The translations under genes were made by a program, and so were the position numbers. DNA of 64,000 bases from Mesorhizobium sp. M4B.F.Ca.ET.058.02.1.1 (GTDB lineage Bacteria; Pseudomonadota; Alphaproteobacteria; Rhizobiales; Rhizobiaceae), in contig NZ_CP034450.1 in assembly GCF_003952505.1 (NCBI RefSeq), positions 186,001-250,000 on the forward strand, read 5' to 3'. Under the pieces are notes generated by a model that worked only from the letters and a program-made list of their open reading frames with translations, was not told the DNA's origin and made no database searches. Below, piece after piece: positions 24,242-29,310 of this stretch (position 1 is the stretch's first letter; each line of letters opens with the position of its first letter).

Positions 24242-25570
24242 ATGCGTTTGTCGCGCTATTTCCTGCCCATTCTCAAAGAAAATCCGCGCGAGGCCGAGAT
24301 CGTCTCGCACCGGCTGATGCTGCGCGCCGGCATGATCCGCCAGCAGGGACAGGGCAGCTTCTCCTGGCTGCCGCTCGGCAAGCGGGTTCTGGACAAGGTT
24401 TGCCGGATCATCCGCGAGGAGCAGGACCGCGCCGGCGCCCTGGAGATCCTGATGCCGACCATCCAGTCGGCCGAGTTGTGGCGCGAAAGCGGCCGCTATG
24501 ACGACTACGGCAAGGAGATGCTGCGCATCAAGGACCGGCAGGAGCGCGAGATGCTCTACGGGCCGACCAATGAGGAAATGGTCACCGAGATCTTCCGCGC
24601 TTATGTGAAGTCCTACAAGGACCTGCCGCTCAACCTCTACCACATCCAGTGGAAATTCCGCGACGAGGTGCGGCCGCGCTTCGGCGTTATGCGTTCTCGC
24701 GAATTCCTGATGAAGGACGCCTATTCCTTCGACCTCAACTACGAGGGCGCCAAGGCCGCCTACAACCGGATGTTCGTGTCCTATCTCAGGACGTTCACGC
24801 GCATGGGCCTGCAGGCGATCCCAATGCGCGCCGACACCGGGCCGATCGGCGGCGACCTAAGCCACGAGTTCATCATCCTGGCCGACACCGGCGAGAGCCA
24901 GGTGTTCTGCCATCGAGACTATCTCTCGCTCGCCGTGCCGGGCGCGAACACCGACTTTTCCAACGACGCCGAGATCGCCGACATCGTCAAGACGTGGACG
25001 ACCCCCTATGCCGCCACCGACGAGATGCATGACGAGGCGGCCTGGGACAAGGTCTCCGAGGGCGACAAAGTCTCGGCGCGCGGCATCGAGGTCGGCCATA
25101 TCTTCCATTTCGGCGAGAAGTACTCCAAGCCGATGGGCGCCAAGGTGACCGGGCCCGACGGCAAGGATCATTTCGCTTCGGGCGGCTCCTACGGCATCGG
25201 TCCCTCGCGGCTGGTCGCGGCGATCATCGAGGCGAGCCATGACGACAACGGCATCATCTGGCCCGACGCGGTGGCGCCGTTCGACATCGGCCTGATCAAC
25301 ATGAAGGTGGGCGACGCCGAATGCGACCGCGTCTGCGACGAGCTCTATGCCGCACTCTCCGGCGCCGGCAAGGACGTGCTCTATGACGACACCGACCAGC
25401 GGCCGGGTGGCAAGTTCGCCACCGCCGACCTGATCGGCCTGCCCTGGCAGGTGATCGTCGGGCCGCGCGGCGTAGCCGCCGGTGAGATCGAGATCAAGAA
25501 CCGCAGGACCGGCGAGCGCGAGACGCTGCCGATCGAAGCGGCGAAGAAGCGCCTCGGTATCGCCGCATGA
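24242..25570 (+). CDS. proS: Proline--tRNA ligase
   Basis: 442-residue class II prolyl-tRNA synthetase of the short alphaproteobacterial type, which lacks the editing insertion domain of E. coli ProS. Class II motifs are visible: motif 2 [25 protein letters not shown] sequence near residue 140, [11 protein letters not shown], and motif 3 [17 protein letters not shown]. The ATG at 24242 gives [19 protein letters not shown], the normal start; the in-frame extension to 24065 overlaps the leader region. It is translationally coupled to lolC by a four-base overlap. Confidence 0.97.
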
Positions 25571-26868
25571 GCCAGGCGGCCGCAGCCAAAGCCCCGGCCG
25601 TCAAAGCCCCAGCCGCCGGCGCCTTTTCGGTGTTCGAGCGCATGGTTGCCTGGCGCTACCTGCGCTCGCGGCGCAAGGAGACGGTGATCTCGGTCATCGC
25701 CTCGATCTCCTTCCTCGGCATCATGCTGGGGGTGGCCACGCTGATCGTCGTCATGGCGGTGATGAACGGGTTCCGCGCCGAGCTGTTGACCCGCATCCTC
25801 GGCGTCAACGGCCATCTGATCGCGCAGCCGCTCGATTCGCCGCTCGAGGACTATGCCCAGGTGGCGAGCCGCATCAACGGCGTGGCAGGCGTCAAATACG
25901 CGATTCCCCTGATCGACGGCCAGGTGCTGGCGCAAGGCAATGTCGGCGGCGGCACAGGCGCGCTGGTGCGCGGCATACGCGGCGAGGATCTCGGCAAGAT
26001 CTCGATCGTCTCCGGCAACATCAAGCAGGGCACGCTGGACGGCTTCGACACCGGCGAGGGCGTGGCGATCGGCAAGCGCATGGCCGAGAATCTTGGCCTC
26101 GTGCTCGGCGACACCATCACGCTGATCTCGCCGGAAGGCGACGTGACGCCGCTTGGCACGACGCCGCGCATGAAGGGCTACAAGATCGCGGCGATCTTCG
26201 AGGTCGGCATGTCGGAGTATGACAGCTCGATCGTCTACATGCCGTTCTCGGAGGCGCAGCTCTATTTCAACATGGACGGGCGGGCGCAGACCATAGAGAT
26301 CTATGTCGACAATCCCGACAATGTCGATGCGCTGAAGCCGCTCGTCGAGCAGGCGGCGCAGCGGCCGATCGACCTTGTCGACTGGCGCCAGCGCAACGAG
26401 ACGTTCTTCTCGGCGCTGCAGGTCGAGCGCAACGTTATGTTCATGATCCTGACGCTGATCGTGCTGGTGGCGGCTCTGAACATCATTTCCGGCCTCGTGA
26501 TGCTGGTGAAGGACAAGGGTCACGACATTGCCATCCTGCGCACGATGGGCGCCTCGCGTGGCGCCATCCTGCGTATCTTCCTGATGACGGGGGCGGCCAT
26601 CGGCGTCACCGGCACTGTCGCCGGCGTGCTGCTCGGCGTCGTCATCTGCCTCAACATCGAATCGATCCGCCAGTTCTTCTCGTGGATGACGGGCAGGATC
26701 CTGTTCAATCCCGAGCTTTATTTCCTCAGCCAGCTGCCGGCGAAGATGGACCCGCGCGAGACGACCTATGTCGTCATCATGGCGCTGGTGCTCTCCTTCC
26801 TGGCGACTGTGTTTCCGGCATGGCGGGCCGCCCGCCTCGATCCGGTCGAAGCCTTGAGGTACGAGTGA
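25567..26868 (+). CDS. lolC: Lipoprotein-releasing ABC transporter permease (LolC/E)
   Basis: 433-residue inner-membrane permease of the Lol system, which releases mature lipoproteins from the inner membrane to LolA. The architecture is one N-terminal helix ([20 protein letters not shown]), a large periplasmic MacB-type domain of about 230 residues, and three C-terminal helices with the FtsX motif [20 protein letters not shown] and [17 protein letters not shown] at the end. A single permease paired with LolD is usual in alphaproteobacteria. It overlaps both neighbours. Confidence 0.95.
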
Positions 26869-27548
26869 TGGCCGAGGCCATTATCGAGCTGAAGAGCGTC
26901 GAGCGGCACTATGTCCAGGGCCCGCGCAAGCTCACCATTCTTAACGGCGCCGACTTTTCGCTGCGGCGCGGCGAGATGGTGGCGCTGGTGGCGCCGTCCG
27001 GCACCGGCAAGTCGACGCTGCTGCACACGGCCGGGTTGCTTGAGCGGCCCGACGCCGGCGACGTGATTCTGAGCGGGCGCGCCTGCGGCCGGCTCTCCGA
27101 CGAGGAACGCACGGCCATCCGCCGCAACGACGTCGGCTTCGTCTATCAGTTCCATCACCTGCTGCCGGAGTTTTCCGCGCTGGAAAACATCATGATGCCG
27201 CAGCTGATCAAGGGGCTGACGCGCAAGGAGGCGGCCGAGCGGGCGGCACAGCTGCTCGACTACATGCAGATCGGCAAGCGCGCGCATCATCGGCCGTCGG
27301 AGCTCTCGGGCGGTGAGCAGCAGCGCGTGGCAATCGCGCGCGCCGTCGCCAACGCGCCGCTGGTGCTTTTGGCCGACGAGCCGACCGGCAATCTCGACCC
27401 GGTCACCGCTTCCTATGTGTTCGAGGCGCTGGAGGCGCTGGTCAGGCAATCGGGCCTCGCGGCGCTGATCGCCACCCACAACCACGAGTTGGCATCGCGC
27501 ATGGATCGGCGGGTGACGTTGGCCGAGGGCAAGGTCGTCCCCCTTTAG
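26868..27548 (+). CDS. lolD: Lipoprotein-releasing system ATP-binding protein LolD
   Basis: 226-residue ABC ATPase. Walker A is APSGTGKST (first residue Ala rather than Gly), the Q-loop is [20 protein letters not shown] with the LolD-typical region, the signature is [17 protein letters not shown] and Walker B is [13 protein letters not shown]. The ATG at 26868 shares its first base with the lolC stop; the longer upstream frame lies inside lolC. It powers lipoprotein extraction with LolC. Confidence 0.96.
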
Positions 27549-27817
27549 GTCACGGCGATATTCGGGTGAGGCCGGCCTGCGAAAGGCGGCTTCCTGCGCT
27601 TCCGGTGCTCACGTACTTCAAGTGCGCTCCGCTCCGGTTCTCGGAACCCACCATTCTCGACTCGGCCTGCCCCGAATCTCGGCGTGCACGGCGACCTGAC
27701 TGCCAAGACTTTCTGTCCGCCGTGAACGCAAGACCGGCGCGCATTCGCCTGTCAACCTTTCCTTAACCCTGCCGGATTGAGGGCCCGAAATTTCCGGGCG
27801 GCGCCTTTTTGCGGTCG
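27549..27817. other. Gene-free stretch after lolD
   Basis: About 270 bases with no supported gene. A short hairpin GCCCG/CGGGC (27783-27799) followed by GGCGCCTTTTT (27800-27810) may terminate the lol transcript. The part around 27605-27650 (ACGTACTTCAAGTGCGCTCC) is imperfectly palindromic and resembles dispersed rhizobial intergenic repeats, by impression only. Confidence 0.35.
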
Positions 27818-27852
27818 TTGACATTCGAACAAAATTAGAACAAATTACGAAC
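27818..27852 (+). promoter_or_regulatory. Promoter overlapped by double LexA (SOS) box
   Basis: TTGACA (27818-27823) is a perfect -35 hexamer. Directly after it come three evenly spaced GAAC words at 27827-27830, 27838-27841 and 27849-27852, each pair separated by seven bases. GAAC-N7-GAAC (GTTC-N7-GTTC on the other strand) is the established alphaproteobacterial LexA operator; here two copies overlap and would cover the -10 region. It lies 22 bases upstream of the small gene at 27875. Confidence 0.8.
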
Positions 27853-27874
27853 ATACTAACAACTGGAGAGAGTT

Positions 27875-27961
27875 ATGTCGGACCTTGTTCAGGATGTTGT
27901 GTCGCTCGTTTGCATGAGCACGTTTCTGATTTCCATGGCGATCTGGATCGGCGCCATGTGA
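27875..27961 (+). CDS. Small (28 aa) putative membrane peptide, SOS-controlled
   Basis: A 28-residue frame starting MSDLVQDVVSLV, with one hydrophobic helix through most of its length (STFLISMAIWIGAM at the end) and two acidic residues near the N-terminus. The ATG is preceded by GGAGAG six bases upstream and by the promoter with a double LexA box. A short hydrophobic peptide under SOS control recalls SOS-induced membrane peptides such as TisB or division inhibitors such as SidA/SulA analogues, but I see no direct sequence kinship. The function is unknown; the reading frame is supported by its expression signals rather than by length. Confidence 0.68.
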   Translation: MSDLVQDVVSLVCMSTFLISMAIWIGAM

Positions 27962-28059
27962 GGACCATGCCTTGCGGCCGGCTGTCGCAAGCGCTTCGAC
28001 GTTAAGCTTTTCTTGTCCGCCAAGACGCTAGGTTGCACCGAAGACAGGGAGCAATACCG

Positions 28060-29310
28060 GTGTCGCCGATCGTGATGGCCATCCTCCTGGCCGGCAATCT
28101 CGGACTGATTTTTCTGCTGATGACCGTGCCGCTGGGTTTGCGTACGGTCACGGTGTCCCGGCTGGTGGCGGCGGACCGCCATCGGCTCTGGCAGGCGCTA
28201 TGGCCGTTCGGCAGCGATGCCGGCTGGTCGGGCGAGATCGTTTCGACGCAGGCACTGGATGGGGAGGGCATGGCCCGGATCACCCTGTCCTGGGAGGGGC
28301 GCGATGGCCAGCCGATCGAACGCAGGGTCGCGCTTGAAAATGTCGTCGAGGCCAGCCGGTTCTCCATGCGCGTCCTCGACGATTCTTCGCTCGATGCCTC
28401 GTTCTGGGCAAACTATCGCGAAACCATCGAGCTCGCGGCCGAAGGCGGCGCGACCCGGGTGAGTCTCAGCCAGACCGATCGCTATCGCGGCGTCGCGTTC
28501 CTGATCTTCCGCTATTTCGCCATGCGTCGCGAGCTCGGCAAGCTGCAGCGCTGGGCGAGGACCGGAGAGTATCGCAAGGGCGGCTGGTTCGAGCATCCGC
28601 TGAGCCAGGTCGGATTCGCCGTGCTTTCGGCCTTCATCCTGTGGCCGTTCTTCGGCCTCAGCCTTGGCGGCCTGGCGCTGGCCGCGATCCTGACCTCGGT
28701 GGTCGCCCTGCACGAGCTCGGCCATATGGCGGCATTCCGGCTGATGGGACATAGCAGGGCGCGCATGATCTTCATCCCGCTGCTCGGCGGTATCGCCATC
28801 GGCGGCAGGCCCTACGACAGCCGCTTCGAGGTGGCCTTCGTGGCGCTGATGGGCGCCGGCTTCTCGGCCTTCCTGGTGCCCGTGCTGATTGCCGCCAGCG
28901 GGCTTGCCAGAGGCGAGGGGCATGGCGCAGTCGCCGCGCTGCTGGCGACGCTGGCAGGCTTTTCCGCGCTCTTCAACATCGCCAATCTGGTGCCGGTGTG
29001 GAAGTTCGACGGCGGCCAGGTGCTGCGCCAGATCTGCCCCGGACCGATCGCGCTGGCACTGGCTTCGTTCCTGCTGCTGTCAGCCCTGCTGGCGCTCGGC
29101 TGGCTGGCCGGCTTTTCGCCGGGCTTCCTGCTTGCGGCCGGCGTCGTGTTCCTGATCCTCAGCCTGCTCACCATGGGCAGCGCGGTGAAGCCGCGCCATG
29201 AGCTGAAGCCGATTCGCACCTTGGACCGTTTCGCCATGGCCGGCGCGCTACTCGCGGTCTTCGCCATCCACGGCTACGGGGTGCTGTGGGCGTCGGCGCA
29301 ACTGGTCTGA
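28060..29310 (+). CDS. M50-type (site-2 protease) membrane metalloprotease with N-terminal SRPBCC-like domain
   Basis: 416-residue membrane protein. The N-terminus has one hydrophobic helix, then about 120 residues resembling the SRPBCC/polyketide-cyclase fold (RTVTVSRLVAADRHRLWQAL, then GATRVSLSQTDRYRG). After this comes a multi-helix M50 domain with the zinc motif HELGH in VVALHELGHMAAFRLMGHSR and the distal metal-binding motif NLVPVWKFDGGQVLR. No PDZ domain is seen. I start it at the GTG at 28060, which has AGGGAG eight bases upstream; an ATG at 28075 is the alternative. The domain pairing is uncommon. The substrate is unknown; site-2 proteases usually release regulators from the membrane. 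Confidence 0.82.
   Translation: MSPIVMAILLAGNLGLIFLLMTVPLGLRTVTVSRLVAADRHRLWQALWPFGSDAGWSGEIVSTQALDGEGMARITLSWEGRDGQPIERRVALENVVEASRFSMRVLDDSSLDASFWANYRETIELAAEGGATRVSLSQTDRYRGVAFLIFRYFAMRRELGKLQRWARTGEYRKGGWFEHPLSQVGFAVLSAFILWPFFGLSLGGLALAAILTSVVALHELGHMAAFRLMGHSRARMIFIPLLGGIAIGGRPYDSRFEVAFVALMGAGFSAFLVPVLIAASGLARGEGHGAVAALLATLAGFSALFNIANLVPVWKFDGGQVLRQICPGPIALALASFLLLSALLALGWLAGFSPGFLLAAGVVFLILSLLTMGSAVKPRHELKPIRTLDRFAMAGALLAVFAIHGYGVLWASAQLV

Follow-up and report, generated by a model that had tools for sequence, protein, structure and literature searches.

A conserved 28-residue peptide behind LexA-type boxes in Mesorhizobium probably belongs to the SidA family of SOS division inhibitors

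Introduction

SidA of Caulobacter crescentus is described as a 29-residue inner-membrane protein of the SOS response that interacts with FtsW, its published partners being FtsW and FtsN (PMC4211646); the gene is CCNA_02004 (PMC11034885). Caulobacter has another small membrane division inhibitor, DidA, which also acts on FtsW, FtsI and FtsN but is longer (71 residues), SOS-independent and induced by DriD, not via LexA cleavage (PMC4211646). In other phyla, YneA of Bacillus, which acts on FtsW (PMC13396833), and SosA of Staphylococcus (PMC6851548) are described as SOS-induced division inhibitors. DidA, YneA and SosA are likened to the locus under study by their descriptions. TisB of Escherichia coli is an SOS-controlled short hydrophobic peptide that acts as a type I toxin and is paired with an RNA antitoxin.

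In the literature searched, we found no report of SidA in Sinorhizobium in connection with LexA. A search for SOS small membrane proteins under LexA in Rhizobiales found none, its sole match dealing with copper oxidase. Rhizobiales were absent among the matches listed for the LexA regulon or the LexA box, and the search on SidA and the SOS response of Agrobacterium returned matches on plants, secretion and the like. Judged by title or abstract start, none of the papers found dealt with a phage SidA acting on FtsW.

Here we analyse a 64,000-nucleotide stretch of Mesorhizobium DNA (the window), in which a first-pass annotation made from the sequence had proposed, at positions 27,818–27,961, an SOS-controlled hydrophobic peptide of either the TisB or the SidA kind. 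The observation is real and confirmed, and the sequence comparisons below support its interpretation as an SOS-controlled hydrophobic peptide, which appears right in kind. The locus resembles SidA in its short, predicted single-helix membrane peptide, its LexA-type operator, its position behind lolD (and ahead of dnaE in most of the lineages found), and the common motif (D/E)xxxLxSxxxF. It differs from SidA in that the peptide has 28 residues and an acidic N-terminus without arginine, that dnaE no longer adjoins it in the window's genus, and that the operator consists of three half-sites. With TisB it shares a short hydrophobic peptide apparently under SOS control; unlike TisB, which has its RNA antitoxin, the window locus is without a conserved flank for one.

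Results and discussion

A conserved 28-codon gene

The 28-codon gene occupies positions 27,875–27,961 of the plus strand, from the ATG at 27,875 to the end of the TGA stop at 27,961, and is unannotated. Its product, MSDLVQDVVSLVCMSTFLISMAIWIGAM, is hydrophobic from residue 8 onward (best 17-residue Kyte-Doolittle mean 2.14) and contains two acidic residues, near the N-terminus, and no basic residue; its size and predicted single membrane helix fit SidA (about 29 residues). A GGAG ribosome site on the same strand (27,865–27,868) precedes the ATG, and the first-pass coordinates of this small hydrophobic frame and its good ribosome site were correct.

The peptide is present in all 61 genomes of the genus, the window's own included, at E 5.6e-10 or better; the same search covered 40 genomes from other families of the order and matched 2 of them, weakly (E 0.58 and 0.82). 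In a sample of the family, 169 of 297 genomes match it at E ≤ 10, 96 of these at E < 1e-3. Two family members tried against Pfam and NCBIfam gave no matches. When 31 same-genus loci are compared, the operator, the ribosome site and the ORF make up a conserved island with identities of 0.93–0.96 (0.96 from −60 to −20, 0.93 over the last 20 bases upstream of the ATG and 0.95 across the ORF), as against 0.51–0.67 in the flanks (0.62 upstream; 0.67 and then 0.51 downstream). Among the 25 distinct coding sequences from these loci, dN/dS is 0.064 and third positions account for 18 of the 22 variable sites; the ORF is under purifying selection. Conservation had been set beforehand as the test on which the proposal could fall, and operator and peptide are both kept in the same-genus loci compared, with change that is mostly synonymous.

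Operator and promoter

On the plus strand upstream of the gene, a −35 promoter hexamer, TTGACA (27,818–27,823), is followed by three GAAC words at 11-base spacing (27,827, 27,838 and 27,849). These constitute two GAACN7GAAC matches sharing the middle half-site, that is, a predicted LexA-type box 1, GAACAAAATTAGAAC, at 27,827–27,841 and a predicted box 2, GAACAAATTACGAAC, at 27,838–27,852. Hexamer, words and overlapping boxes all lie where they had been claimed to lie. The Caulobacter LexA consensus, GTTCN7GTTC, is this motif read from the complementary strand (PMC12700426, PMC4211646), and about 97% of Caulobacter SOS promoters are described as having one box (PMC12700426).

Within the window, the frequency of boxes is not above chance (1.70 matches expected; at least two in 45 of 100 shuffles). 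Because shuffles give as many, the box count was rejected as evidence, and chance had to be excluded via conservation. Among 75 genus and family loci (L001–L076 without L058), an exact box lies at most 75 bases from the ATG in 73, TTGAC stands immediately ahead of the operator in 63, and all three GAAC words are kept in 37. Half-site columns are 99% identical in the 31 same-genus loci, as against 69% upstream of TTGAC. Such conservation across loci raises the operator above chance. A LexA operator at the promoter, which is a trait of SidA, is therefore present as sequence in nearly all of the 75 loci and conserved with the ORF, and we infer LexA control of the 28-residue peptide. The half-sites, one helical turn apart, could allow cooperative LexA binding, which would keep a harmful peptide tightly off. 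A sigma-70 promoter scan of the peptide locus returned none reaching the threshold and no −10 matching the TTGACA, which points to a −10 element that is weak or non-canonical.

A narrower pattern, GAACAWANNNNGAAC, occurs at 15 places in the window's genome, and its reversed form at 2. Of the 15, two are the peptide operator itself, three adjoin Pfam-marked genes (two IMS-family polymerases and one UvrA), and a further one adjoins a gene that looked ImuA-like without matching Pfam at 1e-5. Two more stand beside a DnaB-like helicase gene and a radical-SAM gene; together with the sites at the two IMS-family polymerase genes, these are L241, L243, L246 and L248.

Gene order across Alphaproteobacteria

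Directly upstream of the peptide unit, on the plus strand, lies a lolD-type ATPase gene (26,868–27,548), for which TIGR02211 LolD is the best model and which is the genome's best match to that model (258.5 bits, below the cut-off of 307.75). It is preceded by a lolC/lolE-type lipoprotein-release permease gene (25,567–26,868, plus strand; NCBIfam TIGR02212 lolCE, 500.9 bits, cut-off 362.45). The next gene downstream encodes an M50-family peptidase (28,060–29,310, plus strand; Pfam PF02163) and is outside the peptide unit, because lipB or dnaE comes next in other loci. The first-pass annotation had pointed to the place after lolD and before the M50 gene as worth following across Rhizobiales. Within the stretch available, LolD is upstream in 58 of the 75 family loci, while downstream we found M50 in 32, minus-strand LipB in 35 (some behind M50) and DnaE in 5. 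Since the downstream genes vary, we assign the operator to the peptide rather than to whichever gene comes next. What had gone unrecognised is that the place downstream of lolD is SidA's place; of the SidA order (lolD, sidA, dnaE), the window has the lolD side, and dnaE is not next here.

Elsewhere, lolD is followed by a LexA box, the gene of a small membrane peptide and then dnaE. An order-level search covered 18 loci (L080–L097, with L080, L089 and L090 from the window's own family), and an operator-like site with a small membrane ORF was found in 14 of them (with one departure in L096), LolD being upstream in 12 of the 14 and DnaE downstream in every one. The remaining four loci (L082, L089, L090 and L093) are without this arrangement. 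L089 and L090 have dnaE and a family-profile match (E about 0.0017), without operator and membrane ORF by the criterion used; their copy is possibly decayed or re-regulated.

Searched across the class, the family profile, A1, gave a list of hits that were weak outside the window's genome (best E 3.5e-4), and those fetched (L100–L128) had no lolD-box-ORF arrangement; LolD was accordingly taken as the search anchor. A LolD match was obtained in 120 of 143 genomes, the window's own included, and the downstream region was read in 89 of the 119 others, two of which belong to the same order and one of which (L216) offered only about 140 bases. An exact box with a small membrane ORF occurs on the sense strand in 14 of these 89 genomes, with DnaE downstream in all 14, and on the opposite strand, from which alone the chance rate was taken, in 0 of 89. 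The arrangement is absent from the other 75 regions, which suggests a patchy distribution, loss of the gene or its control by a different operator in these genomes. Over the order-search and class-level loci together, DnaE follows box and ORF in 28 of 28. Where genomes of this type have LexA boxes ahead of dnaE, these may be those of the peptide rather than of the polymerase gene. The founding SidA paper and a 2004 comparative study of LexA left aside, the spread of SidA-like peptides seen here is wider than the literature found describes.

Two class-level loci, L205 and L210, encode a longer form of the boxed peptide upstream of dnaE: counted from the likely start it has 47 residues, the common core being preceded by a charged extension at the N-terminus. 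Second matches in genome G176 (L254 and L263), considered as an extra copy, were rejected as one gene on two contig ends.

Relation to SidA of Caulobacter

Four named Caulobacter genomes (602-1, Root343, BIN43 and one uncultured) were reached via the S-layer gene and searched with LolD. In each of the four, an exact LexA box is followed by a 29-residue ORF, MIR(I/V)ARESLALVSVA(S/G)FVWMMCTVA(N/Q)LVA, which lies immediately upstream of dnaE. The DnaE of one of them (L237) matches NCBIfam NF004226 at 1457 bits, with a cut-off of 1002. The ORF comes directly after lolD in Caulobacter 602-1. Long minus-strand frames separate the two in the other three genomes (L231–L233, L235–L237), and these are an insertion into an otherwise close lolD-sidA pair.

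Judged by its length, its operator, its place and a remark on start codons, the 29-residue ORF before dnaE is very probably SidA. As to place, CCNA_02004 (sidA) and CC1926 (dnaE) are presumably neighbours in Caulobacter. The number CC1926 for Caulobacter dnaE is given in PMC1839093. sidA is named among the genes with a corrected start codon (PMC4117421), which fits an in-frame upstream ATG of the ORF that would give 40 residues.

Pairwise similarity would not connect the window peptide to SidA, and profiles were used for the sequence comparison. The family profile A1 scored the Caulobacter ORF weakly, at a level reached by 447 of 20,000 shuffles and by 4 of 84 controls, a control set that contained loci chosen by A1 itself. 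This test was discarded as weak, with compromised controls, and replaced by an order-level profile made from 13 peptides of the order search, of which one came from the window's family (L080) and none from Caulobacter; the peptides were aligned on their [KRQEH][DE] pair and the longer ones trimmed. This profile gives the window peptide a score of 41.5 and two variants of the Caulobacter ORF scores of 27.9 and 23.7, of which 27.9 is reached by 0 of 3000 shuffles. Three of 178 control ORFs score at least 23.7; all three, passed by the filter, are probably members of the peptide family on prophages, and the best other control scores 18.8. The window peptide is therefore related in sequence to the Caulobacter peptide by the order-level profile, and weakly so by the family profile alone. 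Eleven class-level peptides were scored as well, leaving out L130, L165 and L210: five (L133, L175, L182, L195 and L205) exceed the control at 18.8 and six (L150, L161, L169, L176, L181 and L203) do not. The kinship of these six, and of L130 and L165, rests on place and operator.

Proposed function and alternative explanations

We consider it probable, from the comparisons above, that positions 27,875–27,961 encode a SidA-family SOS division inhibitor, for which LexA binding, induction, FtsW binding and division arrest would be expected by analogy with the published work on Caulobacter. LexA bound to the two overlapping boxes would keep the promoter shut; upon DNA damage, RecA-triggered cleavage of LexA would open it, and a short mRNA would yield the 28-residue peptide, which would insert into the inner membrane as a single helix and hold the late septum-building complex (FtsW, FtsI and FtsN) inactive until repair is done.

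Substitutions in Caulobacter FtsW are described that relieve SidA strongly (A31K) or relieve both SidA and DidA (F145L and A246T) (PMC4211646). A31, F145 and A246 are present in two Caulobacter FtsWs, which confirms the numbering. The FtsW of the window's genome agrees with them at all three aligned positions; by reading of the alignment, A31, F145 and A246 are kept by five non-Caulobacter FtsWs in 3, 4 and 4 cases, respectively. These kept residues are compatible with FtsW as the target, though they are not proof of it. Counted against SidA is the charge of the two peptides, the Caulobacter ORF having two arginines and the window peptide no basic residue.

Of the two kinds named in the first-pass annotation, that of SidA is favoured, because gene order, operator, size and sequence agree with it, and that of TisB is disfavoured. 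An SOS-induced toxin of the TisB kind would lower the membrane potential, be held in check by an RNA antitoxin and give rise to persister cells; an SOS-type operator before a short hydrophobic peptide would suit it, and TisB is described as depolarising E. coli after DNA damage by antibiotics (PMC11997105). Yet conservation in the 31 same-genus loci ends at both edges of operator and ORF, so that no conserved antisense RNA is apparent, and Rfam has no match in 27,500–28,300; the peptide is without a basic residue, and its place and sequence are common to the Caulobacter 29-mer. An antitoxin RNA that changes fast or lies at a distance may still exist, and we regard such a toxin as unlikely.

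Somewhat less likely again is an SOS-induced membrane regulator whose partner is some membrane protein other than the divisome, such as a transporter, a protease or the neighbouring genes' lipoprotein-release complex. The peptide does stay beside lolC-lolD in many genomes, but Caulobacter has in this position the 29-residue ORF that is very probably SidA, and the described partners of SidA are those of the division machinery, FtsW and FtsN (PMC4211646). We find it very improbable that the operator controls the next gene, the M50 peptidase here and dnaE elsewhere, with the ORF as a leader or a chance frame: the regular presence of dnaE behind box and ORF in the order-search and class-level loci would fit, whereas operator and ORF persist in family loci where lipB follows on the opposite strand, and most variable sites of the ORF are third positions. 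As a SidA-family member, the peptide would provide rhizobia and other Alphaproteobacteria with a candidate SOS division inhibitor that has no Pfam or NCBIfam match, and its natural variants across the class make the contact between SidA and FtsW testable by covariation and exchange.

Relatives in phages and prophages

Some genomes of the family have a second match away from lolD, without a box in the 100 bases shown, MRDLLHDIASFVAVSTFIATFAVWAGYLAEKV and MRDLVQDTCSFVAMGLFLISAAFWIGAL being examples. IMG/VR, scanned twice with DNA patterns, gave eight contigs with SidA-like peptides, and the box is absent from the 400 bases before the peptide in the seven contigs checked. Boxless SidA-like peptides on viral contigs or on probable prophages of rhizobial genomes are those of L256/L277, L255, L258/L271, L260, L266/L272, L058, L276 and L278–L283; L255, L257, L058, L260–L262 and other viral contigs were judged by eye to be phage regions, L257 least surely. 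Three peptide queries of deposited phages and one of plasmids gave no copies. The 15 records of phage-type peptides comprise 12 distinct coding sequences with a pooled pS of 0.55 and pN of 0.31, so constraint is visible, and weaker than in the host gene. By PHROGs, neighbouring genes encode exonuclease VIII and RecT (L277 and L271) or exonucleases and Ssb (L272), and one neighbour in L283 belongs to a family of unknown function.

Judged from titles and abstract starts, phage relatives of SidA are described nowhere in the literature found. That they block division is a guess from homology, and their existence raises the possibility that phages, too, act on this septal switch. An evenly balanced possibility is that many Alphaproteobacteria have long had SidA as an SOS division inhibitor, kept in the gap between lolD and dnaE while its sequence drifted, and that rhizobial phages acquired a copy, freed it from LexA control and put it beside their recombination genes, arresting host division on their own schedule. 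When viral loci were found via the neighbouring exonuclease, 5 of 25 had the peptide, all on contigs already found; the peptide was accordingly rejected as a general partner of the phage exonuclease gene. One IMG/VR contig and the genome contig of L256 are both 42,186 bases long and carry an identical peptide.
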